The notes below the pieces were generated by a model. The model did no database searches and had not been told where the DNA came from. It saw nothing but the letters and a program-made list of their open reading frames with translations. A stretch of 64,000 bases of DNA from Terriglobia bacterium (GTDB lineage Bacteria; Acidobacteriota; Terriglobia; Acidiferrales; UBA7541): assembly GCA_020073585.1 (NCBI GenBank), contig JAIQEV010000004.1:1-64000 (forward strand), given 5' to 3'. This document shows, in pieces, positions 7,185 to 63,376 of this stretch (position 1 is its first letter; every line of letters begins with the position of its first letter). Both the position numbers and the translations under genes were made by a program.

Positions 7185-7187
7185 GGC

Positions 7188-8372: not shown

Positions 8373-8481
8373 GAACCGGAATTGTTGGCTTCCCGCGCGA
8401 TTCTGGCAAGCATTAAATTGGAGCATGCTTTCCCGGCGGGGCGCACTCCAACGAGCGTGCTCCTGCGGGGAATCGCGGGCG

Positions 8482-34792: not shown

Positions 34793-34818
34793 AGAAATTC
34801 TTTTTTGGAGGTGAGGCA

Positions 34819-35235: not shown

Positions 35236-35244
35236 GGACATCCC

Positions 35245-38102: not shown

Positions 38103-38216
38103 CCGCTGCGCGTCCGCCGGGCGGCGATCCAGTCGCGCGCCGGAACCAACCGCTTTTTGCATGCGCTAAGCCAGGGAGCAAGCACAGTCCGGGCAATTGC
38201 GTAAGGCAGGTGACGG

Positions 38217-40322: not shown

Positions 40323-40786
40323 GGAAGCACTTTGCGTTTGTCGCTCTGGCTCTCTGTCTGGGTGCCGGCTTTTCCGCGTACCGCGGAGGCGCCGCGGCGC
40401 AAGCCGATCCGCGGCAAAAAGCGTATGCGACGGAGCCCGACTGGAACGACCCGCAACGCCTGATCCCGCTGAATTATCAGCAGGCGCGGGGCAAGCGCCT
40501 GTTCTATCAATATTGCGTCTGGTGCCATGCGGATGCGACTCCGGCTGGACCCTCCAACCGCGCGAACCTGAACCCGGTACCGCCCTTGCTGAATGACGGA
40601 GCCGCCCTAAACGGGAAAAGCGACGAATTTCTGCTGGAAATCACCACCCTGGGGGGCAGCGCGATGGGGAAATCGGCGATGATGCCTCCTTATGGACGGA
40701 CGCTGACCCGCGAGGAAATTCAGGCGTTGATCGCCTTTGCTCGTGCGATTGCACAGCCGCCCTATCAGCCTCCGGCCCCGCGATAA
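40319..40786 (+). CDS. Monoheme cytochrome c
   Basis: A 155-residue exported class I cytochrome c. The signal peptide (FAFVALALCLGAGFSAYRG) is followed by a single heme site CVWCH near residue 66. A Met-containing distal segment (GSAMGKSAMMPPYG) and the closing helix TREEIQALIAFARAIA follow. The ATG at 40319 overlaps the octaheme gene stop, so expression is coupled. This is the last gene of the CuA/NrfD operon. It could be the mobile carrier that takes electrons from the complex to a terminal enzyme. ActE of alternative complex III holds an equivalent role, but close homology is not shown. Confidence 0.88.
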   Translation: MRKHFAFVALALCLGAGFSAYRGGAAAQADPRQKAYATEPDWNDPQRLIPLNYQQARGKRLFYQYCVWCHADATPAGPSNRANLNPVPPLLNDGAALNGKSDEFLLEITTLGGSAMGKSAMMPPYGRTLTREEIQALIAFARAIAQPPYQPPAPR

Positions 40787-47109: not shown

Positions 47110-47203
<94 letters not shown>

Positions 47204-47364: not shown

Positions 47365-48213
47365 TCACAAATCCCGCCTTCGTAACCAGCGACCAGCGAC
47401 AAGAAATGGAACGCTGGCCCAGAGGAGCAATGCTGCTATAAGAAGAAGATTGCTTATGATCTGGCCGCCCAGGAACTTCATCAACGCCGCCCCCGCGGCG
47501 CCGAAGATGGAGACGTCACCCACCAGCATGAGGCCGGAGACGCGTACCATGTCCACCGGGTTTCCAAAAAGCGACACGAAAATGAATTGATTGGCCATTT
47601 TCTCCCGGAGAACAAAGGAAATACCCATCACCAGCAGGTCGTAAAAGAGAACAAAGAAGAACCAGAGAAAAAGCGACATCCCGGAGGCCTTGGCTCGGGT
47701 TTCCGCCAGCGTCGCAACCAGAGCCCCCAGTGACAGAAAGACGAGCGCAAGAAGCTGTGCCAGCGCGACAAAGCCGAGATACCGCGTTAGGCCAGACGTT
47801 CCTGCCTTGATGGCGATGATTACTCCTGCGAGGCCGAAGCCAAACAACGTTGCGGTCCAAATCGACAGAAAAAGCCCCAACAATTTTCCGAGCAGGATTT
47901 CGATGCGCCCGACCGGCTGCGAGAACAGGAGCTCGCTCGCTCCTTTTTCCCCGGTCAGACTGAGGGTCGCCATGCTCAATGAAACAATCGGGATGAGATA
48001 GAGGACCAGGTTAAGCAAACTCGCGGCGGTCCGCATAAATCCCTGAAATCCGACCGTACCGGCAGTGACGAGGCCGAAATAGGAAATCGCCAGCGAGAGA
48101 ATCCCAAAGGCTACCGCAAGAAGGAGCGTCCATTTGTTGCGAATATTAGTCTTTGCTTCGAGACTGGCGATCGTGGAGACGGCGCTAAAATCCATCGGTT
48201 TTCTCCGTGACAT
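47365..48213 (-). CDS. nosY: NosY: ABC transporter permease for NosZ copper-site maturation
   Basis: A 282-residue ABC-2-type membrane protein with six predicted helices (for example LLLAVAFGILSLAISYFGLV, LYLIPIVSLSMATLSL, LFLWFFFVLFYDLLVMGISF). It also has the cytoplasmic signature LTGEKGASELLFSQPVGRIEILLGKLLGLF typical of NosY. With NosF and NosD it forms the complex that delivers sulfur or copper components for the CuZ centre. The start is at 48213 (MSRRKPMDF); an ATG at 48195 is the alternative. A 110-base gap separates it from nosL. The gap holds an AACCCAA/TTGGGTT stem with an inner GCCCC/GGGGC pair (48217-48270), possibly affecting expression of nosY. It is the last gene of the cluster. 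Confidence 0.9.
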   Translation of the reverse strand: MSRRKPMDFSAVSTIASLEAKTNIRNKWTLLLAVAFGILSLAISYFGLVTAGTVGFQGFMRTAASLLNLVLYLIPIVSLSMATLSLTGEKGASELLFSQPVGRIEILLGKLLGLFLSIWTATLFGFGLAGVIIAIKAGTSGLTRYLGFVALAQLLALVFLSLGALVATLAETRAKASGMSLFLWFFFVLFYDLLVMGISFVLREKMANQFIFVSLFGNPVDMVRVSGLMLVGDVSIFGAAGAALMKFLGGQIISNLLLIAALLLWASVPFLVAGRWLRRRDL

Positions 48214-48323
48214 GCAAACCCAAGACGCTCGAACGCCGCAGCCCCACTCGCGGGGCCGTGGATTTGGGTTCTACAATTAGCACCCCATATTGAGCGTGTC
48301 GTGTCATGAGCCTCGGCAAGTTC

Positions 48324-48743
48324 TCAGATCTTCCAGAGGTCCTGGAAGTTGAGGACCTCCGCGTGAAATTTAATGGAGAACTCTTCAGCCTTCGTTTTCT
48401 CCTGGAAAGCTACCAAGCCGCTGGCCATCGGACTGTGAAGTTCTTTGGACTTCACGTAATAGGACTTCTCGGCCGGCAGCCAAATGCGTTTGTCGTAATC
48501 CGTCACGAAATAGGCAGCTGCTTTTTCACGCAAATCGCGGTCCCGGACGTACCGAATCATGCAGCGAATATCGTCGAACTTGACGATTGTCCCTTCCTGG
48601 TCCACGAACTCCGCGGCATATCGTCTCTCCGAAATCGCCATTTTGCAGGACGAGCAGATATCTCCCGGATCGAGTTCAGCTGGTTCCGGATGGCCGCCGC
48701 ATCCCACCATTGCCACCAACAGAAGTAGGAGGATTCTTCTCAT
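48324..48743 (-). CDS. nosL: NosL copper chaperone lipoprotein
   Basis: A 139-residue lipoprotein (signal with LLLLVAMVGC). The NosL copper-binding motif CSSCKMAI sits near residue 35, followed by the usual FDDIRCMIRYVRD and LPAEKSYYVKSKELHSPM. NosL delivers Cu(I) to apo-NosZ at the membrane, working with NosDFY. The gene starts inside the 3' end of nosF (68-base overlap), which is longer than usual and implies coupled translation. Length and motif are standard. Confidence 0.9.
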   Translation of the reverse strand: MRRILLLLLVAMVGCGGHPEPAELDPGDICSSCKMAISERRYAAEFVDQEGTIVKFDDIRCMIRYVRDRDLREKAAAYFVTDYDKRIWLPAEKSYYVKSKELHSPMASGLVAFQEKTKAEEFSIKFHAEVLNFQDLWKI

Positions 48744-49638
48744 TGATGTACCTCAGATAGATTTCTTCAAGAGATGGTTCCTCAGTCGAGAAGCGCTCGA
48801 TCATCGCGCCTGTCGCTTCCAGAGCGCGCAAGATCGGCAGACGCTCCTGAGGCGCGGCCAAAACGATCAACCTCCGATCGGCCAATCGCGCATCTCTTGC
48901 ACCAGCGTCCAGTGCGACGCGGATGAAACGCTCCTCCGGATTGAGCAAGACCAGGCAAATCCTTGAACTATTCATGAACTCTTCTCGCAGCGTGGCCACG
49001 GATTCGGCGGCAACGAGCCTGCCGCCGACCAGCACCGCCACCTGGTCTGCCATCGCTTCCACGTCGGAAAGAACGTGCGTGGAAAAAATGATCGTCTTGC
49101 CCTCTTTCTTAAGACTGTTAATGAATTGCCGAAATTGGATGGTTCCTTCCGGGTCTAGGCTGGTTGTTGGCTCGTCGAGAATCAGGACAGGCGCTCCCGG
49201 CAAGAGCGCCACGGCAATACCGAGACGCTGCGTCATTCCGCCGGAAAGCTCGCGAATCGGCCGATCGGCTAGCCCATTGAAGTTGAGGCTGAACCTCTCC
49301 AGGACTTGTTCAATCCGGCCCGCCGGAAGTTTCCGCAATCGCCGGTAGAACTCCAGAATCTCCTGGACCGTCAAGTTCTCCTGAAAGACGACGCGCTGCG
49401 GAAGATAGCTGAGCAGCTCGCGCGCTTCTCCTATCTCTTTCCGGCCCTCTGGCAGGTTGATCAAGAGCTGGCCGGAGGTTGGCCGCATCAGGCCCACCAG
49501 GCACTTCAAGGTAGTGGATTTGCCGCTGCCATTCGGTCCGAGCAACGCAAAAGATTCTCCTGCGCCTGCACGGAAAGATACATCCTCGACGGCGCGCAGC
49601 TCGCCGAAGCTCTTGCACAGATGGCATACCTCGATCAT
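48676..49638 (-). CDS. nosF: NosF: ABC transporter ATPase
   Basis: A 320-residue ATPase with Walker A GPNGSGKST, Q-loop region LPQRVVF, signature LSGGMTQRLGIA, Walker B VLILDEPTTSLDPEG and the switch His in FSTHVLSD. It powers the NosDFY complex that matures NosZ. Its start overlaps the nosD stop by four bases (ATGA), and its 3' end overlaps nosL. The C-terminal about 20 residues (Gly/Pro/Ser-rich) coincide with the overlap and look dispensable. Confidence 0.93.
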   Translation of the reverse strand: MIEVCHLCKSFGELRAVEDVSFRAGAGESFALLGPNGSGKSTTLKCLVGLMRPTSGQLLINLPEGRKEIGEARELLSYLPQRVVFQENLTVQEILEFYRRLRKLPAGRIEQVLERFSLNFNGLADRPIRELSGGMTQRLGIAVALLPGAPVLILDEPTTSLDPEGTIQFRQFINSLKKEGKTIIFSTHVLSDVEAMADQVAVLVGGRLVAAESVATLREEFMNSSRICLVLLNPEERFIRVALDAGARDARLADRRLIVLAAPQERLPILRALEATGAMIERFSTEEPSLEEIYLRYINEKNPPTSVGGNGGMRRPSGTS

Positions 49639-51038
49639 CGCTTCTTGCCCTGGACTATCAGGAAAACAGAGAGCGCGACCATGAGAAGTGGCACGACCAC
49701 GGAAGAATGCCCTGCCACGGGGGGTCTGCCGGCCTCCGGCATTTGCACGGACAAAACGACAGGTTTCATCAACGGGTAGAAATCGAATTCTTTGGAACCC
49801 TCAATGACTGGGAAGGCCTTATCTGCCAGCGCGATGGCCTGGGCGGCGGGGCTGAAAAGATAGAGGCGCAGGCGCGGATAGTTCCCTTCCAGGTGCTCGA
49901 ACACGTTCTGGATTTTGAAGGGCACGTCCCCGATCCCGTCGGCATCCAGGTCGTACCCGGTGTAGTCGTTCCAATAATTGCCGTTGCCCAAACGACTCCA
50001 TAGGGTGGTCGTCCTTTTTCCGACCAGTTGAATTGGGCTCAAGTTGGCCATAAAGTTGTTCCGCTCGAAGACGTTCCCTTCCGCGCTGCTGAAGATCTCG
50101 ATCGCGGTGTCGTTTGCGGCGATTAGATTTCTCTGGAAAATGCTCCGCCGGAGCGCTTCCATGAAGATACCCACTACGTTGTCCACAATCAGGTTGTCTT
50201 CCACGAGGCAGTCATCGCTGTCCTGGAAAAGAATGCCAAAAGAGCTGAAGCCGCGGTTGTGTAGAAAGCCATTTCGCCGAAGTTCGATCCTGTGCGAGTA
50301 CATGATCGCTGCGCCGGCAACGTTGTTGTAAAAGAGATTGTCTTCGAATTTGTTGTCGTCTGAGAACATGTAATGAATACCATACCGCAGCTCAGAGACG
50401 CGATTTCCGGTGATGGTAGTGTGGTAGGCGTTCTGGAAATACATGCCGTCGCGGAGCAGTGTGATGCTATTTGCACGGATCACGTTGTCGCGAGAGTTCC
50501 AGATGTGGATGCCGCTGCCTCGCTCACCCAATTCGAGGTATTCACGCCCACGGATGGTGTTGTCCGCAATCAGATTGTGGTCGGCGCTGAAGAGGTAAAT
50601 TCCGAAAAGCACATCGCGCAGCTCGTTCTGCTCGATCTGGTTATGGCTGGACTTGAGCAGAATGCCGGAATCTTCGTCGACCAGCATTGTGCCGCTGGAT
50701 TCGATGACGAATCCGCGGAGGACACAGCCGGCAGCCGTCACCGTGATGACGCTCGCCTGTCCGTCGCCATGGATGATCGGCTTGCCGACGCCTTCGAGCG
50801 TGACCTGCTTGTCAAGGATCAGGTTGCCCCGATAGAAGCCGCTTTCCACGTGAATCGTGTCACCTGCCCGGGCCGTGTGGATTGCTTCTTGAATGGAGCG
50901 GAATGGGCCTTGTTTGCTGACCACCAAAGGTTTGGAGATTGCGTCACCGGCCCGGCAGGCGGAGGTGACCAGCAGACCGATTAGAAGGAGAGTGCTGGCA
51001 AGGGCAAATGATTTGCGTTCCAGCCCATGCGGCCTCAC
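49635..51038 (-). CDS. nosD: NosD periplasmic copper-site maturation protein
   Basis: A 467-residue protein. A signal peptide (LASTLLLIGLLVTSAC) is followed by a right-handed parallel beta-helix of CASH/PbH1 repeats (residues about 50-330, for example NQIEQNELRDVLFGIYLF, DNVIRANSITLLRDGMYF). The NosD-specific end reads NYWNDYTGYDLDADGIGD. A C-terminal helix (VVVPLLMVALSVFLIVQ) could anchor it. NosD interacts with NosFY and with NosZ during CuZ assembly. Sequence and size match nos-cluster orthologues. It overlaps nosF by four bases and follows the NosB-like gene by 64 bases. Confidence 0.93.
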   Translation of the reverse strand: MRPHGLERKSFALASTLLLIGLLVTSACRAGDAISKPLVVSKQGPFRSIQEAIHTARAGDTIHVESGFYRGNLILDKQVTLEGVGKPIIHGDGQASVITVTAAGCVLRGFVIESSGTMLVDEDSGILLKSSHNQIEQNELRDVLFGIYLFSADHNLIADNTIRGREYLELGERGSGIHIWNSRDNVIRANSITLLRDGMYFQNAYHTTITGNRVSELRYGIHYMFSDDNKFEDNLFYNNVAGAAIMYSHRIELRRNGFLHNRGFSSFGILFQDSDDCLVEDNLIVDNVVGIFMEALRRSIFQRNLIAANDTAIEIFSSAEGNVFERNNFMANLSPIQLVGKRTTTLWSRLGNGNYWNDYTGYDLDADGIGDVPFKIQNVFEHLEGNYPRLRLYLFSPAAQAIALADKAFPVIEGSKEFDFYPLMKPVVLSVQMPEAGRPPVAGHSSVVVPLLMVALSVFLIVQGKKR

Positions 51039-51102
51039 GATTTTCCTCTCCTCGAAGCTTCTCGTTCAGCTTGTACCCGCGGTGACCACTCCGGAAATCT
51101 GA

Positions 51103-51801
51103 TTACAGCCCCTGGACCTGCCTTCGGGACATTAGCAGCGACACCACCAGCAGCAGAAAAAAAGCGATCATGAAATAAGAAGCCGTCCCCGGATAACTGT
51201 ACACTGTGAAATTCGCAAGCTGCTTTGACCCCAACATCGGAGGCATGAAGGCTGGAACTTTGACCGCCGCCATGGGGTCCAGGTTGTGGCCATACTGATA
51301 GAGGCGACTGTAGAAACTCCAGAAGGAGAACATCCCGAAATACAAGAACAGAACAGCCGTGTCCACCAGGTTGGACATCTTGCCGATCACAACCGTGCGC
51401 AGCGTCAGAATAAAAAATACGCCGACCACCAACGGAATCCAGGCGAACTCGCTGAAATCGCTTTCCAGCAGGGGACGCATTCCGATGTAGTGGTTGAGCG
51501 TGTTGATTTCCCGCAGATCGTCTCGGCCTGGGGGATGCCCGCCCTCGAGGGTGTACGTATAGATATGAAGATCCAAACCGTCGGGAAACTGATTCGAATA
51601 CATCGTCATGTTCCAGAGCGGGAGAAGATAGGTAGGGATAAGCAAAAAGGCCGCCACCAGCAGGAGCAGACGGCTCAACCCGCCGAGGGGTAAGTCGAAA
51701 AAGGCGTTGGCCCTCGCGAGGAACGCTTCAATGCTCCATTGGACCTTCGCCGGCCCATGCACTTGTTTTGCGAGAGCAACCGACTTCGGCAGGCTGGACA
51801 T
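51103..51801 (-). CDS. NosB-like multi-helix membrane protein of clade II nos clusters
   Basis: A 232-residue membrane protein with about five helices (LLLLVAAFLLIPTYLLPLWN, FAWIPLVVGVFFILTL, VDTAVLFLYFGMFSFWSFY, YFMIAFFLLLVVSLLM). A periplasmic loop carries the conserved-looking segment PDGLDLHIYTYTLEGGHPPG and INTLNHYIGMRPL. Its place directly after nosZ, before nosD, matches NosB of clade II (atypical) nos clusters, whose function is unresolved. The symbol nosB would rest on position and topology, so I leave it blank. The start is the ATG at 51801 with GGAGAA upstream. Confidence 0.75.
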   Translation of the reverse strand: MSSLPKSVALAKQVHGPAKVQWSIEAFLARANAFFDLPLGGLSRLLLLVAAFLLIPTYLLPLWNMTMYSNQFPDGLDLHIYTYTLEGGHPPGRDDLREINTLNHYIGMRPLLESDFSEFAWIPLVVGVFFILTLRTVVIGKMSNLVDTAVLFLYFGMFSFWSFYSRLYQYGHNLDPMAAVKVPAFMPPMLGSKQLANFTVYSYPGTASYFMIAFFLLLVVSLLMSRRQVQGL

Positions 51802-51878
51802 AAGACATTCTCCTTTGAGATGGCCGGCGGTTCTCATGGACCACCGGCCATCCTCTGAAGAGGTTTCTCCCCGAAACC

Positions 51879-53732
51879 CTATTTGGGCTTCACCAGTAGA
51901 TATCCTTGCATCTCCTGGTGCAGCGCCGAGCAGAAGTTCGTGCAGTAATAAGGGAAAACGCCTGCTTTGTTGGCGACAAATTCAATGGTCTTGGTTTCCC
52001 CTGGATCCACAACCACGTTGATGTTGTATTCGTTCAGCCCAAAGCCATGCAGCTCATCCGTCGTTTGTTCGATATTGGTGAGATGGATGGTTACGGTATC
52101 GCCCTGGTTGACTTCGACTTTCCATGGCTCAAAGTGACTCCGGACGGCGATCATCTTCACGGTCACGTGATTTCCGCTCCGTTCGGCCTTGGCGTCTTTT
52201 TCGTCCCAGATGGCTTGGGGGTGCTTGTTGTCTGCTTGTGTGTAGACCTCGATGGGCTTCAGCTTATCGGCCTTGATCATTTCCGCGTAGTGGGGCTCGG
52301 GTTCGGTGAACGCGTCATAGAGGAGCTTCATTTTCTCGCCGGTGATGTCTATAAGCTGGGAGCTTTCCGGCTGCGATGGTCCGACGCTCAAGTGCCGTCC
52401 GTGGGAAAGCTTGTTCAACGCCACCAGGTATTTGCCGAGCGGATGCGTCGTGTCGCCTTCCGCCGCCGCCAGGTGGCCGATGTTGTAGGAAACCGGAATC
52501 TTGTCCACAACCTCCCAGGTCCCCAGCTTCCACTTGGCAATGGCGCTCTCGACGAAAAGACTCGTATACGCGTAGCCCTGGTTGTCGAACTGAGTATGCA
52601 ACGGCCCCAATCCGACATTCACTTCTGCGTCTTTGATCGCATCATAGTTGAGAACAGGTATGCCGTCCTCTTGACCGGTGAAGTTCTTGGCCTGGATCGC
52701 GGTCAGAATTTTTTCCATGTTGAATGCGGTGGTAATCGACTGCAGCTTGCCGCTGCCGATGATGTACTTGCCGTCCGGGCTGACATCCACGCCATGCGGA
52801 CTCTTGGAACATGGAATCAGGTAAACGACACCTGGGACCTCCTTCGGGTCGATCACCTTCGCACCGCCCAGCATCTTGAACTTGCCCTGCTGGATCGCCT
52901 GCTCGGCCGTCTTCAAATTCACGGCCGCGATATAGTCGCGGTCTTTTTGCGTTGATGTAACCTCCAGCTTGCCGATGGCGCGTTCTGTGTTGTAAGAGGT
53001 CCAGAAGGCCCAACCGTTGCTGGCTCCCTTCCCTGCATCCCCCAGGTCAAAGTCGAACGGCGGCATGAGGATCTGCCAGCCGAGACTCATCTGGCCGGTC
53101 TTAGGATCGATTGCCACAACCGACACGACTCCGTGGTATGCCGTCGCGTATTGCTCAACCGGCGCATAGGTCCCCTTGGGCAAGGGAATCGAGAAGCGCG
53201 AGGCCGCTAGCAAATATTCGCTGTTCGGCGTGAGAAAGGTAGACCCGTGGTTCCCGGAAACATTCGGAAGCGGACCGAGGATTTGTCTGGTCTTGAAATC
53301 TCTCAGATCAATTCGCGCCACCCGATTGTTTGCGTTGTCGTTGATGAAGAGCCAGCGCCCGTCGTAGTCGCCGTTGGTCTCGCTGATCGCCGGATGGTGG
53401 GCGTCCCCCCAGCTAAATCCGCCGAGCATCTCCTTGGTCTCCTTATCGAAGCCGTAGCCGGTTCCGGGATACGGCGTGAAGACCGGTATCGTCGCGATGT
53501 GTCGCATCGAGGGAACTCCGGCGACGTACACGTTGCCCGATTGTCCGCCGGAATAAAAAAGGTAATACTCATCCATATCGCCCGGGGCAACATACGTTGC
53601 GAGAGCCGCTTCCGCCGCTTCGCCCCTGGTTACGCCCGCTTTCTTCTTACAACCGTCCGACAGCAACGTGAGTGAGACTAAAAACAGCCCACAGATGAGG
53701 AGGACCCATTTGGCTTCAAATTTCCTGTTCAT
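51879..53732 (-). CDS. nosZ: Nitrous oxide reductase (clade II type)
   Basis: A 617-residue periplasmic enzyme reducing N2O to N2. The seven CuZ histidines are all present in the beta-propeller: H112/H113 (GDAHHPAIS), H162 (GNHGS), H313 (SPHGVD), H379 (PLHT), H420 (IGHLA) and H481 (PEPHYAE). The C-terminal cupredoxin has the full CuA set: H562, C597, C601, H605 and M608 (CTNFCSALHQEM). The N-terminus is a Sec-type signal without twin arginine, ending near LLSDGC (imperfect lipobox). This and the gene order mark it as clade II. It follows the pentaheme cytochrome gene by about 50 bases. Confidence 0.97.
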   Translation of the reverse strand: MNRKFEAKWVLLICGLFLVSLTLLSDGCKKKAGVTRGEAAEAALATYVAPGDMDEYYLFYSGGQSGNVYVAGVPSMRHIATIPVFTPYPGTGYGFDKETKEMLGGFSWGDAHHPAISETNGDYDGRWLFINDNANNRVARIDLRDFKTRQILGPLPNVSGNHGSTFLTPNSEYLLAASRFSIPLPKGTYAPVEQYATAYHGVVSVVAIDPKTGQMSLGWQILMPPFDFDLGDAGKGASNGWAFWTSYNTERAIGKLEVTSTQKDRDYIAAVNLKTAEQAIQQGKFKMLGGAKVIDPKEVPGVVYLIPCSKSPHGVDVSPDGKYIIGSGKLQSITTAFNMEKILTAIQAKNFTGQEDGIPVLNYDAIKDAEVNVGLGPLHTQFDNQGYAYTSLFVESAIAKWKLGTWEVVDKIPVSYNIGHLAAAEGDTTHPLGKYLVALNKLSHGRHLSVGPSQPESSQLIDITGEKMKLLYDAFTEPEPHYAEMIKADKLKPIEVYTQADNKHPQAIWDEKDAKAERSGNHVTVKMIAVRSHFEPWKVEVNQGDTVTIHLTNIEQTTDELHGFGLNEYNINVVVDPGETKTIEFVANKAGVFPYYCTNFCSALHQEMQGYLLVKPK

Positions 53733-53785
53733 CTCCGTTTACTCCTTTGCCTTGAAATTGGAACTTAGGGTCTCGTTTGCAAAGA

Positions 53786-54988
53786 CTATTTTTTGGCGCG
53801 CGCCTGCTTCGCTTCTTGCTCCAGCTTTCTCTGGTAGGCAATCTTGAGTTTTGCGATCGCTTCGTCCTTCTCGGCGTCGGTGAGTTGAATCTGTGACCCG
53901 AGCACCAGCGCCATGGTCCCGGTAGGGTTGTGCAGAAAATCCTCCAGCGTCTTTCCGAAGCGCGTTTGCACATCGGCGTACGCGTTGGACAGGTCGGGGC
54001 CGATTTTGGCTGCCGATTCGATGCCGAGCGTGCTCACGTCGTGGCAAACAAAGCAGGTCTTCTTTACGAAGAATGCGCCTTCACCGGTCATCATCTGCCG
54101 CTCTTTTTCGATCTCTTCCGGCGTCGGCAGGTCGGCCACTGCGGCGCCCGGGATGTAGCTCACCGGCAGATTTGTCCGCTTCCAGCTCAGAACGAGCAGG
54201 GCGAGAGATTGCGCTTCACGGCTTCCGAAGTTGAAGTTCGGCATCACCGTCTCGCTCACCAGCGATTTCGGACTTTTGAAATGCGCGACGTGCCAGCCGA
54301 AAACCGATGGCCTGCCGGACATGTGCGAGTAGTCGTACTGTTCGGGGGACTTGTCTCCAACAGCGCTCAAATCTGGCCCGATCACGCCGCCGCGGCCGTT
54401 GATTTTGTGGCACGCGCGGCAGCCTTTCTCCCGCACGAGCTGCTTCGCATAGTTGATGTAGTCGGCGCCCGCAGTCTGGCGGTCATAGCGGTGGCAAGTA
54501 TTGCAGTTCGTCTGGAGCATGGCCGTGCGGTCGCTGATCACATAGGTCTTTCCCAGTTCGGTATAGAGCAGCGGTTCCTCCCATTCCTCTATCCCGGTGG
54601 CGTGCGCGGAAGCCACGTCCACGGCGAAGCCCTGCCCACCGTGGCACATGGTGCATCCGTACTTGGAGAGCGGGTGTTTTTCGAGGATTTCCCTGGGGTG
54701 TGACCGGAAAGGCTGCGGGGCGCTCTCAAGGCCCTTCCACTCCATACCGAGATGGCAGGTGACGCATCGGTCGACGCGACCCAACCTTTGGACCCAGATC
54801 TGCTGGATTCCCTCGGGAGCCTGCTGCGCGCGGTCCGCCCCAAACCGCTTAGCGACGAGTTCTTTGAAATCCGACTGGTATCCTTTCCACTCTGGGCGAA
54901 TGTCGCCCCAGAAGAGGAATGCAGTGAGAAGCAACGTCACCCCTCCGAGCGAGTAGATCCACAACCCATCTTGGCTCTTCCACTTCAT
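53786..54988 (-). CDS. Pentaheme cytochrome c of the nos electron-transfer chain
   Basis: A 400-residue protein with one N-terminal membrane anchor (IYSLGGVTLLLTAFLFW) and five CXXCH sites (Cys at 75, 112, 162, 190, 312). The first three form the module CVTCH / YGCTMCHGGQG / CNTCHRYD shared with the octaheme cytochrome at 38.2 kb. The last two lie in class I cytochrome-like domains (GPDLSAVGDKS, MPNFNF). By position it takes electrons from the Rieske/cytochrome b complex and passes them to the CuA site of NosZ. It starts 9 bases after the cytochrome b stop. Confidence 0.88.
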   Translation of the reverse strand: MKWKSQDGLWIYSLGGVTLLLTAFLFWGDIRPEWKGYQSDFKELVAKRFGADRAQQAPEGIQQIWVQRLGRVDRCVTCHLGMEWKGLESAPQPFRSHPREILEKHPLSKYGCTMCHGGQGFAVDVASAHATGIEEWEEPLLYTELGKTYVISDRTAMLQTNCNTCHRYDRQTAGADYINYAKQLVREKGCRACHKINGRGGVIGPDLSAVGDKSPEQYDYSHMSGRPSVFGWHVAHFKSPKSLVSETVMPNFNFGSREAQSLALLVLSWKRTNLPVSYIPGAAVADLPTPEEIEKERQMMTGEGAFFVKKTCFVCHDVSTLGIESAAKIGPDLSNAYADVQTRFGKTLEDFLHNPTGTMALVLGSQIQLTDAEKDEAIAKLKIAYQRKLEQEAKQARAKK

Positions 54989-54997
54989 CGTCTTTCC

Positions 54998-56323
54998 TCA
55001 AAACTTCTTCGGCATCTCCGGCCACGCCTCCCACGGCCAGTAGAACTTCCAGTACGGCCCCCGCAGAAACGTACCGATGACGGTCAGGAGGAGAATTCCT
55101 GCAACGATGGCCAGAAAGACCCAGTTCTGCGTCCGGCGCTCCAGCGAGAACCAGACCCCTGCGGCCCGAATGGTACTCCGGTCGAGATACGGCCAAACCG
55201 CAAGGAGGATCACGAGGATGGCGGGAAGCAAGATTCCGCCGATTAGCGCTCCGTTAATCGTGAAGTCGCCGATCTTCACCGTCGTATCCGTCACCAGCTC
55301 CTGGAGCCAGAGGAAATACCAAGGGGCTTTCGCGGGATTGGGTGTGACGCTCGGATTGGCCTGGGCTTCCAATGGCGCCCGCACAACCACAGCAAGCAGA
55401 ACACTGATCGCCAGAGTCGCCAAAAACACCATCAGTAACCGCCGGGTTAGCTGCGGTGACGAATCCACCGAGTGCTCTTCCTCGTTGACGAGGGCAGTTT
55501 CGACGTGCACGGCCGAACCCCGGGCGATTCCTAGCAAGGAATAAGTCTTGGATTTCTTCGGTGCAGTTTGTTCGTGTTTTTGCGTGAGCGAGAGCTGGTC
55601 AACGCAGGCGAGGCCTCCGTCCTTCCGCACTCGCCACATGTGCCAGGAGAAGAGAAGAAGCACGACCCCAGGCAGGACAAAACAGTGCAGCACATAAAAC
55701 CGCAGAAGCGTGCTCTGCGCGATCTCGTTTCCGCCCAGAAGGAGAAATCGGATCTTCTCGCCCGCCAAAGGGGCCGCGCGGGCAATGTTTGTGCCCACGG
55801 TGATCGCCCAGTAGGCCAGTTGGTCCCAGGGCAGCAGATAGCCGGTGAACGACAGCAGCAGAGTCATAAGAAGCAGCGCGATCCCCAGGAGCCAGTTGAA
55901 AGGCCGCTCTTGGCCGGCGGCCGTGCCATTCTTGTAAGAACCGGTCAGGAACGCCCGCACCATGTGCAGAAACACGGCTGCCACCATGAGGTGCGCTGCG
56001 ATGCGATGCAGGCCGCGGATGAACCAGCCGTAGGACACCACATACTCGAGATCTTTAACCGATGGATAAGCGCGTTCTACCGAAGGAACATAGAGAAACA
56101 TCAGAACCACGCCCGTGACCGTTAGGATGAGGAACAGGATCGCGGAGACCGTGCCCAGCCATAGCGAATAGCGAAAGCTCAGGCTCTGCTGCCCGATCTT
56201 GGCGGGGAGCCAATGCAGCAGCAGATTTCGAACGATCGAATCACCCGCTTCGCGCTCGCTCTCTGGACTCCACGTCCAGGTCAGCCGTTTTCCGAGACTC
56301 TTGTTCGCTTCCATTCGGGCCAC
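54998..56323 (-). CDS. Cytochrome b of a Rieske/b complex (fused b6-subunit IV form)
   Basis: A 441-residue integral cytochrome b with eight or so helices. Heme-b ligand pairs are H106/H120 in [17 protein letters not shown] and H213/H228 in [18 protein letters not shown]. The second pair is spaced by 15 positions as in cytochrome b6, not 14 as in bc1. The Qo-site region reads [12 protein letters not shown], the PEWY equivalent with Ala for Glu, as in Gram-positive menaquinol bc complexes. PWDQLAYWA is also typical. It oxidises quinol. It lies between Rieske and pentaheme genes (2- and 9-base gaps) and is probably dedicated to N2O respiration. Confidence 0.92.
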
Positions 56324-56325
56324 CG

Positions 56326-56886
56326 TTAAACCGTCAATCGAAAGCTCTGGCTCACGCGTTCAGAGAGATCCACCACGAGCTGCCCGTCTTCCGGGGCGAC
56401 TTCAAGCCGGTACCACGCAAGGGGCCCGGGCGCGGGTCCTGCATAGTTGGTGCCGTCGCCGTAGTACTTCGAGCCGTGACACGGGCAATGAAACTCGCGC
56501 CGCTCCTCGACCAGGCGGCCCTTGATTTGCACCTTTTTGGGCTGGCTCAAATTGATCATCTTCACCGTGCACCCGAGATGCGTGCAGACGGCTGAGACGG
56601 CATAGAAAGTTTTTTGCTCGCGAAATACGAAGACGCGGCGGTCCTCGAAAAACGTGGCGCCCTCGGGGAATTGATCGGGCAGGCCAGCTTTGAACCGCTG
56701 CGGTTCCTCATACAGGACATTGGGAACCAGGGCGCGCAGGAGCGTATACGCTTGCCCCGCAACGGCGACAAGCATCGCCCCGAGCCCGAGCCGGCGGAGC
56801 CACGACCGCCGTGACTCCGGCGACTCCAACGCCCTGCTTCCTTTCGTCGCTTGTTTCATTTCAGGAAACGGTTTCGTGCTCTTCAT
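56326..56886 (-). CDS. Rieske [2Fe-2S] protein
   Basis: A 186-residue membrane-tethered Rieske protein. The N-terminal anchor ([21 protein letters not shown], with twin Arg upstream as in Tat signals) is followed by a Rieske domain. It has box 1 C101-T-H103-LGC106 and box 2 C134-P-C136-H137-GS. C101, H103, C134 and H137 bind the cluster; C106/C136 can form the disulfide. It transfers electrons from quinol at the Qo site to the cytochrome. The ATG at 56886 has GGAGA upstream and lies 26 bases inside the previous gene, so translation is coupled. Confidence 0.93.
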
Positions 56887-58795
56887 AGAAGAGAATCTCC
56901 ATGGTCATTGCGTCTGTGGGGCAGCGGATCGCGCAGAGCCCGCAGCGGATGCACTTCTCATCGTCCTTGATCATCGCCGAGAGCTGACCTTTGTCCGCGA
57001 GAGGCAAGCCGTACAGCTCCGACAGTTTTTCGGCTGTCTCCAATTCCAGATCCAATTGGTCGAGCGGCACGAGTTTGAGGCAATACTCAGGGCAGACATC
57101 CACGCATCGGTTGCACAACACGCATCTCTCGGGATCGTAAATTGTCTGGATGTGGCAATAGAGGCACCGTTCGGCTTGGCGCCGCGCGTCCGATTCGGAG
57201 TAGCCGATTTCCACTTCCGAGATCCCTGTGCGGCGATTGAGTTCGATTGTCGGCGGACTCTCCCGTTTGCGTTTCTCGTACGCGGCGGCCATCTGATAGG
57301 TGCGCATCGGAATCTTCCGGAAGGAAATCTGCGTCCTTGGCCGGCCCTCGACACCCCTTAGGTAGCAGTCGATCGATTGAGCAGCCCGTTTCCCGTTGGC
57401 AATGGCTTCGATCAGATTTCGAGGGCCGAAGGCTACATCGCCTCCGGCAAAGATGCCGGGAGCGGACGTTGCCAGAGTTTCCGCATCCACCTTAATCGTC
57501 CCTTGGGGCGTTAACTGGACACCGTCTTCGGGTTTCAGGAAGGAAAGATCGGCCCGCTGGCCGATCGCCAGGATGACGGTATCTGCTTCCAGGCTTTCGC
57601 TGACGGTGGGATCGTAAATAGGATTGAAGCGGCCGTTCTCGTCGTAGGTGCGCTTCACGCCAATCAATGCGATGGAATGAACGCGCCCATCCTGCCCCAG
57701 GAACCGCTGGGCGCCCCGCTGCGGGTGGAAGACGATGCCTTCCTTTCTCGCCTCCTCGAATTCTTCCTTGCCCTGAGCCGTGCGAAGCACCGGCATCTCG
57801 TCAAGGGACTCCAGGCTGACGATGCGCACGTCCGTCACGCCGGCGCGCACCGCGGCGCGGGCCGCGTCCAATGCCGCAACCATCGCTCCTTCGGGCGCGC
57901 CACGCTCGGCTTCCCCCTCAAGCGCGGCGCGCAGCGCCATGCGTGCCGCGTCGAAAGCCACGAAGCCACCGCCAATCACCACGACTCGCTTGCCGAGTTG
58001 AATCCGGTAGCCGCGATTGATGTTCAACAGGAAATCGATGGCCTTGACAATTCCGTCCAGTCCCGAGCCTTCGATCGCAAGCTCACGTCCGCGCTGCGTG
58101 CCAATGCTCAAAAAGATCGCTTCGTAGCCGAGCTTGCGAAGTTCCGGGAGCCCGAGACCTTCGCGCAGCGGCGAATTGAGTTTCAACTCCACGCCTAGGC
58201 TTAGGATCTTGTCAACCTCTCGCCCGATCACCGAACGCGCCAGCCGGAATTCGGGAATCCCCTGAGACATCATCCCGCCGGCGCTATCGCTGGCTTCGAA
58301 GACCGTCACCCGGTAGCCCATCAGCGCCAGATCATGCGCCGCCGAAAGCCCTGCCGGGCCTGCTCCGATCACCGCGGCCTTCTGCCCGCGCGCAACGTTC
58401 TTTTTGCTGGCGATCAGGGTTGGAAGATGCCAACTGACTTTGTTGCCGGGCTCTGTCCGGCCTTCGAAAAGTTTTGTCTGTGTATCGGGCTGAACCGATT
58501 CGGCGCCATACTTTTCGCAAACAAAACGCTTCAGAGCCCGGATGCTGATCGGGGCATCGATGACGCCACGCCGGCATCGATCTTCACAGGGCGCCGCGCA
58601 GACTCTCCCGCACACGGAGGCAAAGGGGTTGGGAGACCGCGCGGTCAAGTACGATTCCTCATCTCTTCCTTCGGCAATTTCCTGAACGTATTTCCCGGCA
58701 TCGGTATGAATGGGGCATCCCGCCTGGCATGGGATCATGCCCTTCCAAAATTCAAGACCGGGGATTACAAGTCGATACTGGGCAGGGTTCGCCAT
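56861..58795 (-). CDS. GltD-like FAD/NAD(P) oxidoreductase with Fe-S domains at both ends
   Basis: A 644-residue cytoplasmic protein related to glutamate synthase small subunit and NfnB/DPD-type electron-input modules. The N-terminal helical Fe-S domain has CQAGCPIHTDAG and CGRVCAAPCEDRC. The FAD site is AVIGAGPAGLSAAHDLAL, the NAD(P) site VVVIGGGFVAFDAARMAL, and the second FAD motif GIFAGGDVAFGPRN. The C-terminus adds two ferredoxin motifs (CVLCNRCVDVCPEYC and CIRCGLCAIRCPTDA). There is no glutamate synthase large subunit. Heading the Rieske/cytochrome b/nosZ genes, it may exchange electrons between NAD(P)H, ferredoxin and the membrane. The start is the ATG at 58795. Confidence 0.85.
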   Translation of the reverse strand: MANPAQYRLVIPGLEFWKGMIPCQAGCPIHTDAGKYVQEIAEGRDEESYLTARSPNPFASVCGRVCAAPCEDRCRRGVIDAPISIRALKRFVCEKYGAESVQPDTQTKLFEGRTEPGNKVSWHLPTLIASKKNVARGQKAAVIGAGPAGLSAAHDLALMGYRVTVFEASDSAGGMMSQGIPEFRLARSVIGREVDKILSLGVELKLNSPLREGLGLPELRKLGYEAIFLSIGTQRGRELAIEGSGLDGIVKAIDFLLNINRGYRIQLGKRVVVIGGGFVAFDAARMALRAALEGEAERGAPEGAMVAALDAARAAVRAGVTDVRIVSLESLDEMPVLRTAQGKEEFEEARKEGIVFHPQRGAQRFLGQDGRVHSIALIGVKRTYDENGRFNPIYDPTVSESLEADTVILAIGQRADLSFLKPEDGVQLTPQGTIKVDAETLATSAPGIFAGGDVAFGPRNLIEAIANGKRAAQSIDCYLRGVEGRPRTQISFRKIPMRTYQMAAAYEKRKRESPPTIELNRRTGISEVEIGYSESDARRQAERCLYCHIQTIYDPERCVLCNRCVDVCPEYCLKLVPLDQLDLELETAEKLSELYGLPLADKGQLSAMIKDDEKCIRCGLCAIRCPTDAMTMEILFYEEHETVS

Positions 58796-59411: not shown

Positions 59412-60284
59412 TCAAGACCCATGCCGTTCCGGAAAGAGCTTCTCCCGCAAGCGTCCAACAGCGAGCAGGATTCCGTGGAGGAGAGCTTGCGGCCGGGGTG
59501 GACATCCGGGGATGTACACGTCGACGGGCATGACGTTGTCGACGCCTCCGAGAGAGGCGTAGTTCTTGCCAAAGATACCGCCGCTGATGCCGCAGGCGCC
59601 AACCGCGACCACGACTTTCGGTTCTGGCATAGCTTGGTAGGTCTTCAACAGGGCTAGCTCCATATTCCGGGTGACAGGCCCGGTGACCAGGAGCATATCG
59701 GCGTGACGCGGAGAGGCGACAAATTGAATGCCGAAGCGTTCCAGGTCGTAGACAGGATTGTTCAGGGCCACGATTTCGAGTTCGCATCCGTTGCATGAAC
59801 CCGCATCCACTTCTCGAATGGCTAGGGAGCGCCTCAGGAGTTTCTGGATCTTTTCGCGCGCTTTCTGTCCAACACTTTCGACGTCCGCTTCGACATCGCC
59901 GAGGCGCCGATGCACGGCGCGCAACTCCCGATGGGTACGGTCGGTATTCAACGAGTATTCCGCGGTTAGGATGAGGTTACGGCGGTCCGCACTTGCCAGC
60001 TCAAATTCTTGCGTGATTCGCACGGCCTGATCGGCGGACGCTTCCGCACACAAACCGCAGAAGACGCACAGACCGTAATCGACCGTGACTCGCCGGGAGT
60101 CACCCTCATCGCACACGAAAATCGCTCCGGTTGGGCATACCTCCGCGGCATCCCGCGCATCCTTCCATTTTTCGAAGTCGAAGCTCGGCCGCCCGCGAAA
60201 GCGCTCGGAGATTTGAGCCGGCTCGCCGGGATACTTCGTCGTTACAATGCCGGTCGCGATCGTTTTCTGGATGATCTTGAACAT
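59412..60284 (-). CDS. Ferredoxin-NuoB fusion subunit of an Ehr/Hyf-like complex
   Basis: A 290-residue protein. Residues 1-110 are a polyferredoxin-like (HyfH/HycF type) domain. Residues 150-290 are a HyfI/NuoB-type small subunit with the proximal cluster ligands C164, C167, C231 and C261 (GSCNGCELEIVALN, GACGISGG, PGCPPRP). The ferredoxin part keeps C50 (VCPTGAI) and C73/C76/C79 (CVFCGLC). The other CXXCXXC and the partner Cys (S83 here) are missing, so exactly one of the usual two [4Fe-4S] clusters can form. It works in the peripheral arm next to the large subunit, whose gene ends 3 bases upstream of this start. Confidence 0.85.
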   Translation of the reverse strand: MFKIIQKTIATGIVTTKYPGEPAQISERFRGRPSFDFEKWKDARDAAEVCPTGAIFVCDEGDSRRVTVDYGLCVFCGLCAEASADQAVRITQEFELASADRRNLILTAEYSLNTDRTHRELRAVHRRLGDVEADVESVGQKAREKIQKLLRRSLAIREVDAGSCNGCELEIVALNNPVYDLERFGIQFVASPRHADMLLVTGPVTRNMELALLKTYQAMPEPKVVVAVGACGISGGIFGKNYASLGGVDNVMPVDVYIPGCPPRPQALLHGILLAVGRLREKLFPERHGS

Positions 60285-60287
60285 TGG

Positions 60288-61865
60288 CTAGCGATCCGTT
60301 CCCGAGTAGGAAAGATTGAAACTCTTGTTGATGACCGGAAAGTCCGCAATGATGTTTCCTTGGACTGCCTCGACCAGGGCCGGCCAGTTATTGAGGGAGG
60401 GATCTTTGATCTTGCAACGTTCGAGGTGATTGGCGGGGCCGGTACGAATCCAATGGATGATTTCGCCACGCCATCCCTCGACGGCGCTCAGCGCACAGCG
60501 GTCCGCGGGAATGGGCGGGACTTGCGCACGGAAATCTCCGTGCAGACTGTCATCCGCAGCGCTCCGGAGGATGCCCAGGGATTCGTTCACCTCGTCGACC
60601 CGGACCTGCATTCGGTGGATCACGTCGCCAACCTGATAAACGGGCACGCGGAAGGAATAGCGGCCATAGGCCGCATAAGGGTGATCGCGGCGAACGTCCA
60701 GATCCATCCCTGAGGCGCGTCCGGCCACACCTACGACTCCCAAGTCCTTTGCCTTTTCAGGGCGGAGGACTCCGGTCTGTTCCAACCGGTCACGCGTGGA
60801 TTCGGAAGAGTCAATCAGCGCGACTAGATCCTGAAATTCGCTTGCGAAAGCATCGACTGCGGCACGGAGCGAGGCCAGTTGCACGATATCCCAGCCCCTT
60901 CGCACGCCGCCGACGCAGACCATGCCCCGCAAGAGACGATTGCCGGTCAACTGTTCGTTTAGGCTGACCAGCATCTCCTTCAAGCGGCTGGCGTGGGCAT
61001 TCGCGACGACGAAGCCGACATCGGTCGCAATCGCTCCGATGTCGGCAACATGATTGCAGATTCGTTCGAGCTCCAGAAGGATCGTTCGCATGACGAGGGC
61101 GCGCAGGGGAACCTCCATCTGCGCGGCGCGTTCGACGGCCTGACAGAAAGCTGTGCCATGTGAAAAACTCGAATCCCCGGAGATGCTCTCCGCGAGAAAC
61201 ACGGCTTTAGGTATGGGCAATTTCTCAAAGAGTTTTTCCGTGCCCTTATGCGTGTAAAACATGCGAAGTTGCAGATAGAGGATCGGCTCACCAGCTACCG
61301 CGAAATTGAAATGGCCGGGCTCGATGGTTCCGGCATGAACCGGCCCGACTGGCACTTGAAAAACGCCCTCACCCAAAGCGGGCCGGTAGATGTGGCGTTC
61401 TCCCTCGAAAGGCGGTAGTACGGTCTCCAGCGGAAAGTCCTTGCACAAGGGATGAACATCCGGCCAGTTGTCATGCAGGGCGACTCTGCGAGGATTGGGG
61501 TGTCCGTCGGCCTTCAAGCCAAACCAATCCTGGATTTCGCGCTCCTGCCAGTTCACGGCGGGCAGTTCGGCTGAGAGCGATGGAAACTCGGGATGGTCGG
61601 CACGCACCGGTGCCCGCACAATCAGATACCGAGTGTCGCCCTTCCGTTCAAATACGTAGTAGTTGAAGAAGACACCTTCCGCGGAACGCCGGTCCTCGGC
61701 GAACACCGTAACCAGTCTGGCTTCGACCGCGCTTCGCAGGTATTCGGCAAGAGCTCGAATGTCCGGATCACCGAAAAGAACATAGATTTCTTCTTCACGC
61801 TCCGCAGATATCGATTGAATCTGCGCGCCAAACTTCTGTTGAAGAGCCTCAAAGAACGCAGACAT
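60288..61865 (-). CDS. HyfG/HycE-like large subunit without NiFe ligands (Ehr type)
   Basis: A 525-residue fusion of a NuoC-like N-terminal domain (about 1-150, AVNWQEREIQDWFGLKADGHPNPRR) and a NuoD/hydrogenase-large-subunit-like domain. The N-terminal NiFe motif ERxCGxC reads ESISGDS (residues 226-232), so both Cys are Ser. The C-terminal DPCxxC motif reads NLSYSG (517-522), with Ser and Gly. Hence it cannot bind a NiFe centre and is not a hydrogenase. It matches energy-converting-hydrogenase-related (Ehr) complexes, thought to couple ferredoxin or quinone redox to ion pumping. HyfF-like and HyfI-like genes flank it with 8- and 3-base gaps. Confidence 0.88.
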   Translation of the reverse strand: MSAFFEALQQKFGAQIQSISAEREEEIYVLFGDPDIRALAEYLRSAVEARLVTVFAEDRRSAEGVFFNYYVFERKGDTRYLIVRAPVRADHPEFPSLSAELPAVNWQEREIQDWFGLKADGHPNPRRVALHDNWPDVHPLCKDFPLETVLPPFEGERHIYRPALGEGVFQVPVGPVHAGTIEPGHFNFAVAGEPILYLQLRMFYTHKGTEKLFEKLPIPKAVFLAESISGDSSFSHGTAFCQAVERAAQMEVPLRALVMRTILLELERICNHVADIGAIATDVGFVVANAHASRLKEMLVSLNEQLTGNRLLRGMVCVGGVRRGWDIVQLASLRAAVDAFASEFQDLVALIDSSESTRDRLEQTGVLRPEKAKDLGVVGVAGRASGMDLDVRRDHPYAAYGRYSFRVPVYQVGDVIHRMQVRVDEVNESLGILRSAADDSLHGDFRAQVPPIPADRCALSAVEGWRGEIIHWIRTGPANHLERCKIKDPSLNNWPALVEAVQGNIIADFPVINKSFNLSYSGTDR

Positions 61866-61873
61866 CGTTTACC

Positions 61874-63376
61874 TCATCGTCCGTTCATCACAATGCCCGC
61901 TGCGCCCTGAATGAGCCGGAACAACGGAGCGGGTATCCAGAAGCCCATGACAATAATCACCAGAGCCAAGCCCACGACAGAGGAGTTCTTCCAGCGGCAG
62001 ATCTCGGCCGGAGGAAGGCCGGGGTCCGGACCAAGCACAAGGTTGGCGATGTGGATGAGGAATCCAGAGAAAATCGCCACGAGAAAAATGATGAACAGAA
62101 TGGCTAGAACGAGATAGCCTCCGCGGAATCCTGCTCGGAGAATGGTGAACTCGCTCAGGAACAAGCTGAAGGGAGGTGCCCCGGTGACGGCAAGAGTCAC
62201 CATGAGGAAAGCAGCTCCGCTCAGGGGCATCGAATGGATCAACCCCCCTTTGGCCTCGCGGAATAGATCCGTCTTCACGTGTTGCTGGACATTGCCGGCG
62301 CAAAAGAAAAGGAGGGGCTTGGTAATCGAATGAAAAGTCATGTGAAGAAGCATGCCCAGGATGCCCAAGGGCCCTCCGAAGCCGAGTCCAAGCACCATGA
62401 TCCCGCTGTGGTCGATGCTGGAATAGGCCAGCATGCGCCGGAAGCTCTTCTGGACGAGGATGAAGGGAACGGCAACCCCCATCGAGAGCAGTCCAAAAAG
62501 AATCAAAAGGTGCGAGGCAAACTCCGGCCCTAAGCATTTCGCACTCAAAATGTAGAACCGCACGAGACCGTAGAGAGCGCAGTTGAGGACTGCCGCGGCG
62601 AGCATGGCCGCCCCCGGAATGGGCGCTTCGCTGTACGCGTCGGGCTTCCAAGTATGCATGGGAGCGATGCCAGCCTTCGTTCCGTATCCTAGCAAAATGA
62701 GGATGAAGGCCAGGCGCATGGTGGGTTTGTCAAATTGGGCGGCATTTCCGACGAGGACGGACCAGTTCAGACCCGCAAGCGTGTTCGTTGCGAGAACTTG
62801 ATGTGCGGAATAATAGGTCAGGATTGTACCGAACAGGGCCATCGAAAGGCCGACGCCTCCGATAATGGCGTACTTCCACGCGGCCTCAAGAGACGTCTCC
62901 CGGCCGTAAAACATAACCAGGAACACGGACGCCAATGTGGTTCCTTCGATCGCTACCCAGAGTATTCCGAGGTTGTTGGCAAGAGCGACGAGAATCATGG
63001 AAAAAACAAACAGAGGCGTAAGCGCGTAGTATTCTCGCAGCTTCGGAACGGCGTTCCCGCCGCCCACTGCTTCGTTCTCCTGGAAAACTCCGTTTCTCTC
63101 CTCATGACGAAAATAGCCGACAGCATAGATAGAACATACAAGGGCCACGAAAGCGGTCAAAAGAATGACCAACGCACTCAAAGCGTCCGCGTAAAAAAAT
63201 CCATCCCAAAGCGAAACGGGGCCACTCCGAAGTACCTGAATCCCCAGTGCAGCGGCCAGGCACAGCAGAACGGCGAAGGCAGCGAGATTGACCACCTCCA
63301 TGACCGGCCGTCTTCGGAGAAAGAAGGCCAGAGGACTGGCGGCAAGAGGAACGATTAGGAGCCAGAGCAAAATCAT
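61874..63376 (-). CDS. HyfF/NuoL-M-like proton-pumping membrane subunit
   Basis: A 500-residue protein with about 14 membrane helices of the Mrp/NuoLMN antiporter family. Marks include the helix-7/8 region KAGIAPMHTWKPDAYSEAPIPGAAMLAA, with conserved Lys and the H-x-W-L/K-P motif, and FHSITKPLLFFCAGNVQQH with the second pumping Lys. It should translocate H+ or Na+ across the inner membrane, driven by the peripheral arm encoded downstream. Its ATG at 63376 lies 8 bases after the HyfE-like stop. Length matches HyfF (about 500-530). Confidence 0.92.
   Translation of the reverse strand: MILLWLLIVPLAASPLAFFLRRRPVMEVVNLAAFAVLLCLAAALGIQVLRSGPVSLWDGFFYADALSALVILLTAFVALVCSIYAVGYFRHEERNGVFQENEAVGGGNAVPKLREYYALTPLFVFSMILVALANNLGILWVAIEGTTLASVFLVMFYGRETSLEAAWKYAIIGGVGLSMALFGTILTYYSAHQVLATNTLAGLNWSVLVGNAAQFDKPTMRLAFILILLGYGTKAGIAPMHTWKPDAYSEAPIPGAAMLAAAVLNCALYGLVRFYILSAKCLGPEFASHLLILFGLLSMGVAVPFILVQKSFRRMLAYSSIDHSGIMVLGLGFGGPLGILGMLLHMTFHSITKPLLFFCAGNVQQHVKTDLFREAKGGLIHSMPLSGAAFLMVTLAVTGAPPFSLFLSEFTILRAGFRGGYLVLAILFIIFLVAIFSGFLIHIANLVLGPDPGLPPAEICRWKNSSVVGLALVIIVMGFWIPAPLFRLIQGAAGIVMNGR

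Follow-up and report, generated by a model that had tools for sequence, protein, structure and literature searches.

A clade II nos operon in a Terriglobia bacterium headed by genes related to the Rieske/cytochrome b complexes of anammox bacteria

Introduction

The nos operon at positions 47365–58795 of contig JAIQEV010000004.1 (Terriglobia bacterium, assembly GCA_020073585.1) raises the question of how electrons reach its nitrous oxide (N2O) reductase, NosZ, and whether the same electrons have a second outlet, since nosZ is preceded by genes for a Rieske protein, a cytochrome b, a multiheme cytochrome c and, at the head of the operon, a protein resembling GltD. NosZ is described in the papers cited here as the sole known biological sink for N2O. 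The stretch analysed, referred to here as the window, comprises the first 64,000 nucleotides of the contig (forward strand), and the contig makes up 112 kb of a 4.0-Mb genome of 96.7 % completeness and 3.3 % contamination. The four genes of the head encode homologues of subunits of Rieske/cytochrome b complexes from the anammox bacterium Kuenenia stuttgartiensis. Gene content and order, this homology, the cofactor ligands and the recurrence of the head as a unit are legible in the sequence itself; the function of the head has to be weighed against several alternatives.

Results and discussion

The operon and its relationship to anammox complexes

A preliminary description of the window had proposed a ten-gene cluster on the minus strand, and the positions of the open reading frames and the library matches bear this out (genes in order of transcription):

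56861–58795, minus strand: GltD-like flavin adenine dinucleotide (FAD)/NAD(P) oxidoreductase with N- and C-terminal iron–sulphur (Fe-S) domains (Pfam Fer4_20, Pyr_redox_2, Fer4)
56326–56886, minus strand: Rieske protein (PF00355; 9rk4 and 9rk3 are the top solved relatives)
54998–56323, minus strand: cytochrome b6 fused to subunit IV (PF00033, PF00032, histidine spacing, Kuenenia homologues)
53786–54988, minus strand: pentaheme cytochrome c (five CxxCH motifs; kept in 64 of 64 nos-linked loci)
51879–53732, minus strand: NosZ, Sec type, clade II (TIGR04246, the Sec-type model with a cut-off of 625, gives 909.6 bits; copper ligands)
51103–51837, minus strand: NosB-like membrane protein (position and conservation; no library match)
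49635–51038, minus strand: NosD (TIGR04247, 420.8 bits)
48676–49638, minus strand: NosF, ATP-binding cassette (ABC) ATPase (PF00005 and position)
48324–48743, minus strand: NosL (PF05573)
47365–48213, minus strand: NosY, ABC permease (PF12679 and position)

The Rieske protein has as its two best relatives of solved structure 9rk4 and 9rk3, which are Kuste4569 and Kustd1480 of K. stuttgartiensis; both belong to complexes that include a putative NAD(P) oxidoreductase and that have been proposed to bifurcate menaquinol electrons between NAD(P)+ and a high-potential acceptor (PMC12954380). When the 9rk4 fragment was searched against 294 genomes of the phylum of genome G458, genome G546 gave 100 % identity, and both Kuenenia gene sets were taken from it; the residue numbers H43, R247 and R511 printed in PMC12954380 fit the G546 proteins exactly. 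Identities to the two sets were 48 and 50 % for cytochrome b, 39 and 35 % for the Rieske protein, 36 % (1e-106) and 35 % (1e-104) for the GltD-like protein, and 24 % (1e-8) and 27 % (8e-27) for the multiheme cytochrome c. The b6-type spacing and the fusion previously noted in cytochrome b were both found, 14 residues separating H213 from H228 and PF00033 and PF00032 lying on one chain, and a 14-residue stretch of the fused protein is common to both Kuenenia subunit IV proteins. These alignments identify the subunits of the head as homologous to those of the Kuenenia Rieske/cytochrome b complexes with an NAD(P) oxidoreductase.

Kuste4571 H43 and R247, together with Kuste4570 R511, have been proposed to hold an additional heme b between the two halves of the dimer (PMC12954380), and they align with H37 and R233 of the window cytochrome b and R575 of the GltD-like protein. 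Nine duplicate loci were removed before the alignments, and taxon names throughout are those of the record titles. H37 is kept in every filled alignment row (61 nos-linked rows, and other groups of 29 and three rows), R233 in 61 of 63 nos-linked rows and R575 in 53 of 54; the ordinary bc protein of the same genome (L205) has an aspartate at the H37 position of the alignment. Ser139 of the Rieske protein, the equivalent of a serine tied to high potential (PMC12954380), is present in all 61 nos-linked rows, and the menaquinone gene MqnC was found above cut-off in the genome. The cysteine that binds heme c_N (c_i) is present in both Kuenenia copies, whereas the window has W55, which aligns with b6 Cys35, and all 62 filled nos-linked rows have W, Y or L there. 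Because this cysteine is absent, we class the window head as a variant of the anammox-type complex and not as a full member.

The Rieske and GltD-like genes overlap by 26 bases (the GltD-like open frame extends to 58831, with an ATG at 58795), and median gaps among the nos-linked loci are −14 bases for GltD/Rieske, 15.5 for Rieske/cytochrome b, 10 for cytochrome b/c and 30 for c/NosZ. This conserved order, with its tiny gaps and overlaps, supports the earlier suggestion that electron delivery appears to be built into the nos operon. The gene order exceeds chance, since dozens of loci, filed under several phylum names, share it. Scanning for promoters and terminators was uninformative (one promoter-like site against 4.1 expected, and 23 terminator-like sites against 14.7, many of them intragenic). 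A tRNA-Ser(gct) gene lies directly after nosY, at 47110–47203.

Proposed path of electrons

We put at about even the chance that the head is an anammox-type Rieske/cytochrome b complex in which menaquinol electrons are split between N2O, through NosZ, and NAD+. The first four genes would then encode such a complex with a built-in NAD(P) oxidoreductase, and the other six a clade II NosZ with its accessory proteins. On this scheme, the outer quinone site would oxidize menaquinol and send its two electrons along separate routes. The first would reach the four hemes that form the core of the pentaheme cytochrome c by way of the Rieske cluster, move on, perhaps over the fifth heme, to CuA of NosZ, and end on N2O; the second would cross the two b hemes and possibly an interfacial heme b (with H37 as ligand), enter the GltD-like subunit through its Fe-S clusters and FAD, and end on NAD+, so that NADH would be paid for by N2O reduction. 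We infer that the products form a single complex, that this complex feeds NosZ, that the interfacial heme is present and, above all, that the flow is directed to NAD+.

A number of points weigh against this scheme. Bifurcation in the anammox complexes is itself a proposal (PMC12954380), and the complex put forward here is a prediction from sequence. H37 had to be discarded as a specific mark of coupling to GltD, being kept in three loci that have no neighbouring GltD gene (L126, L131 and L136), although GltD could sit elsewhere in those genomes. R233 is a glutamine in the second module of the same genome (see below), residue 550 of Kustd1483, an arginine named in another paper, does not fall at the R575 position, and 17 of 61 nos-linked rows have F in place of Tyr141 of the Rieske protein.

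The three loci just named, which have Rieske protein, cytochrome b and cytochrome c, would fit a head that is an ordinary menaquinol:cytochrome c reductase, running a Q cycle and supplying NosZ, with the GltD-like protein making little use of the complex or working with a different electron donor or acceptor of the cytoplasm, for example ferredoxin; going by the title of Hein 2017, clade II N2O respiration in Wolinella is served by a Rieske/cytochrome bc complex. The heme c_N position bears on both accounts. For the anammox authors, both the potential of that heme and the reduction of quinone close to it pose difficulties (PMC12954380), and its absence from the nos-linked proteins accordingly fits bifurcation. 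Standard bc1 complexes, however, also function without heme c_N and still reduce quinone, so that its absence is also compatible with a Q cycle and decides nothing. What makes an ordinary Q cycle improbable in our judgement is the constancy of the GltD-like protein, which is found in both Kuenenia complexes, retains all its Fe-S ligands, and is encoded, together with the Rieske protein, ahead of cytochrome b in 57 of the 62 scan loci with at least 2.9 kb of sequence upstream of the cytochrome b gene, GltD standing before Rieske and the genes overlapping. The preliminary description had considered this head gene unusual, a view that these counts do not uphold.

The GltD-like subunit

Seventeen cysteines of the GltD-like protein are invariant in all 54 nos-linked rows. 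E341, in the second Rossmann fold, is equally constant (54 of 54), whereas both Kuenenia proteins have an arginine there, the nucleotide-binding strand reading S-L-E in the window and Y-R-R in Kuenenia. An acidic residue at this place is the usual mark of a preference for NADH, and by this rule E341 predicts NADH as the nucleotide of the subunit. The predicted structure (predicted local distance difference test, pLDDT, 89) has the bifurcating transhydrogenases Nfn-ABC and StnABC as its best folds, the best sequence matches among these being to Nfn; these folds reflect the common GltD-plus-ferredoxin architecture, which is no proof of function and is a further caution for the bifurcation scheme.

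An NAD(H) enzyme, as E341 suggests, would also suit the main rival to bifurcation, in which the GltD-like protein oxidizes NADH and passes the electrons through its Fe-S clusters to the quinone pool or the b hemes, making the whole an NADH:N2O oxidoreductase unit. Such a unit would share its anatomy and ligands with the bifurcating complex, and NADH is a usual respiratory donor. The anammox authors argue that input of this kind squanders energy in cells that possess proton-pumping NADH dehydrogenases (PMC12954380), and the Rieske serine, expected for a high potential, exceeds what input would need; we regard NADH input as rather unlikely. The 'electron-input' role assigned to the protein in the preliminary description is accordingly one of two directions, and the anammox authors favour the other, NAD(P)H formation (PMC12954380).

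The libraries offer no name for the protein beyond GltD-like or NAD(P)-binding, and each of the 25 NCBIfam rows shown stays below its curated cut-off, as might be the case for a passenger gene of amino-acid or other metabolism that stands first by accident. By these scores, the protein does not reach the level set for a glutamate synthase small subunit (GltD). Gene order, overlap, cysteine conservation and the anammox counterparts make such a role very improbable, and we have set it aside. There is also a correlation between the distances of GltD and those of NosZ (in the 42 complete loci r is 0.92, a value that none of 999 permutations reached; for NosD and NosZ it is 0.85), although common descent is partly behind this correlation, which lessens what it can contribute to the bifurcation scheme. 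A quick GltD tree of 80 rows had 13 changes between the labels nos and other, with several 'other' contigs ending before nosZ and long branches meeting, and a single origin of the nos link could not be concluded from it.

NosZ and the pentaheme cytochrome c

In an alignment to a solved NosZ, the CuA motif and all seven histidines of CuZ are in place, confirming that the copper ligands are intact. The histidine motifs are AHHP (111), GNHGS (160), SPHGV (311), PLHTQ (377), IGHLA (418) and EPHYA (479), with LHGFG (561) and CTNFCSALHQEM (597) for CuA; these residues are those that we take to be the CuZ and CuA ligands. NosD, NosF, NosY and NosL are present as first described, on library matches and, for NosF and NosY, also by position, and the NosB place next to nosZ is filled by a conserved protein that no family library names. 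Neither nosR nor nosG/C1/C2/H is among the ten annotated genes, no genome search having been made for these or for nirS. NirK had no match above cut-off in the genome, and the two PF00115 (COX1-family) genes are read as oxidases and not as nitric oxide reductases (NOR) because both sit just after cupredoxin (COX2-like) matches. The earlier remark that nir and nor genes are not seen holds for NirK and, on this reading, for NOR, nirS lying outside the search. NrfA gave a weak partial match (26.5 bits, cut-off 24.1). By gene content, the genome looks like that of a non-denitrifying N2O reducer.

The five CxxCH motifs of the cytochrome c were found as described (at 75, 112, 162, 190 and 312), and an N-terminal hydrophobic stretch was seen by eye. 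All 64 nos-linked cytochromes have five hemes; 13 of 13 confirmed nos-free copies have the four-heme core and five of the 13 the fifth, C-terminal heme. In L062 and L066, whose cytochromes b are 74 and 71 % identical to that of the window, the fifth heme is lacking and nosZ is absent from the available sequence. These comparisons suggest that the last domain of the pentaheme cytochrome is the likely contact with NosZ. At 10001–16007 of L062, the head relative is followed by genes for a cytochrome c assembly protein, a nitrate reductase delta (NarJ-like) protein and a multiheme cytochrome c instead of nosZ. Pfam searches on neighbours of nos-free modules found mixed gene types.

Distribution of the head

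The cytochrome b scan covered the best 80 of 585 relatives, so that the share linked to nosZ is no natural frequency; nosZ lay at most 4 kb downstream in 49, was absent in 13 with sufficient sequence, and 18 loci were too short. The 49 include Ignavibacteria/Bacteroidetes bins, Candidatus Chrysopegis kryptomonas (L074), a Planctomycetales bin (L090), a Desulfomonile bin (L125) and, with the full ten-gene arrangement in the same order, two named Anaeromyxobacter strain records (L089 and L104). Among 396 Acidobacteriota genomes sampled, 41 had NosZ above cut-off, and all 41 regions (the window and L154–L193) were read: the pentaheme cytochrome gene lies directly upstream of nosZ in 25, the head being complete to GltD in 23, while 13 have no head and three contigs (L161, L192 and L193) end too soon. 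None of ten genomes examined whose NosZ fell below cut-off (11 in total, less G158) has the head, some of the contigs ending near nosZ. A locus titled Acidimicrobiia (L117) has the same sequence as one in an Acidobacteriota-grouped genome (L170, genome G192), and its title is probably wrong.

In the phyla of L089 and L075, the 30 best NosZ loci each and seven further regions were read. NosZ was found in 38 of 195 genomes of the former, with the pentaheme cytochrome upstream in ten of the 30 best loci, and in 98 of 296 genomes of the latter, with the head in one of the 30 (L240); three genomes of the latter phylum (G451, G764 and G805) have the head and two (G897 and G846) do not. The NosZ of L240 is 47 % identical to that of the window, and the pentaheme cytochrome gene and the end of the cytochrome b gene lie upstream of it. 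Taken together, the survey found the arrangement to be widespread, and its presence in two named Anaeromyxobacter strains, presumed N2O users, largely bears out what the preliminary description had named as its own refutation, that the arrangement is already standard in characterised clade II species. Considered as a gene cluster, the window is a further instance of something found widely. The head belongs to a large NosZ subgroup, and judging from these sequences it seems exchangeable between NosZ lineages and may have been exchanged.

It is tempting to speculate that clade II N2O reduction, in members of several phyla, powers a bifurcating, NADH-making 'complex III' with N2O and NAD+ as its two outlets; we advance this tentatively, as possible but not probable. 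If it is true, part of clade II couples NosZ to NADH and gains both reducing power and proton-motive force from N2O, which would bear on growth yields and on the retention of nosZ by non-denitrifiers. The anammox proposal of NAD(P)H-making Rieske/cytochrome b complexes would thereby be carried to named strains (Anaeromyxobacter) that should be more accessible to experiment, and the missing heme c_N would make the nos-linked complex a cleaner test case than the anammox complexes.

Genome setting and other redox modules

Within the search of relatives, NosZ exceeded the cut-off in one of 61 genomes, that of the window itself, and in none of 35 congeners; a genome of the same class (G047) has a cytochrome b 71 % identical to that of the window and no NosZ above cut-off. 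The nearest NosZ proteins among the 42 complete loci, about 81 % identical, are in L067 and L064, titled Acidobacteriota and Blastocatellia. The G+C content of the cassette is 57.3 %, against 64.5 % for bases 1–40,000 of the window and 62.6–65.0 % for four other stretches of the genome. On these grounds of composition and distribution we infer that the cassette was acquired horizontally; loss in relatives or a mis-binned contig may be the explanation instead. Positions 40000–64000 of the window have a G+C content of 58.1 %, against the same 64.5 %, and are a possible island.

A second module of the same genome (L204, contig stretch G000:C4:63000–82000, positions 6429–12995) encodes GltD, Rieske protein, cytochrome b, subunit IV, octaheme cytochrome c and monoheme cytochrome c. 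It shares with the window head the succession GltD–Rieske–cytochrome b–subunit IV–multiheme c, but cytochrome b and subunit IV are separate, an octaheme and a monoheme cytochrome replace the pentaheme one, and nosZ had no match in this stretch. In the window itself, positions 34453–40786 encode cupredoxin-like, NrfC-like (by eye) and NrfD (PF03916) proteins followed by an octaheme and a monoheme cytochrome c, and the octaheme protein (eight CxxCH) shares 62 % identity with its counterpart in the second module across 638 residues. From this resemblance, one octaheme/monoheme pair seems to serve both NrfD-type and Rieske/b-type modules.

Positions 59412–63376 of the window carry NuoB-, NuoC/D- and NuoM-like genes, which we take to be complex I-like or Ehr-type; the large subunit has no CxxC and therefore no NiFe site. 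A link of these genes to the nos operon was considered and rejected, their three proteins having no match above 60 bits in the scan loci.

Comparison with known systems

The closest known systems are Kuste4569–4574 and Kustd1480–1485 of Kuenenia, which, like the window, have a Rieske protein, a GltD-like protein with several Fe-S clusters, a b6-type cytochrome b, subunit IV and a multiheme cytochrome c (PMC12954380). The window differs in the fusion of cytochrome b with subunit IV, in the position of GltD before Rieske, in the five hemes of its multiheme cytochrome (six or eight in Kuenenia), and in having NosZ next in the operon where Kuenenia has an HAO-like octaheme protein. Canonical cytochrome b6f differs from the window head in having the heme c_N cysteine, and in the window the pentaheme cytochrome takes the place of cytochrome f. 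The transhydrogenases Nfn-ABC and StnABC have a fold similar to that of the GltD-like model but other partners, those in the window being a Rieske protein and cytochrome b. In Wolinella, clade II N2O respiration reportedly uses the NosG/C1/C2/H route and depends also on a Rieske/cytochrome bc complex; the ten genes of the window, by contrast, lack nosG/C1/C2/H, and its Rieske and cytochrome b genes lie within the operon beside a GltD-like partner. From the Anaeromyxobacter clusters (L089 and L104) there is no essential difference, and the window is a further member of that group. A link of nos clusters to anammox NAD(P)-type complexes was not found in the open-licence papers searched, judged mainly by listings and abstracts, and may have been mentioned elsewhere. 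Clade II nos clusters with Rieske proteins and b- and c-type cytochromes have already been listed (PMC11096178, in the legend of Fig. 5); this much is published, and the element that appears to be new is the link to an anammox-type complex.

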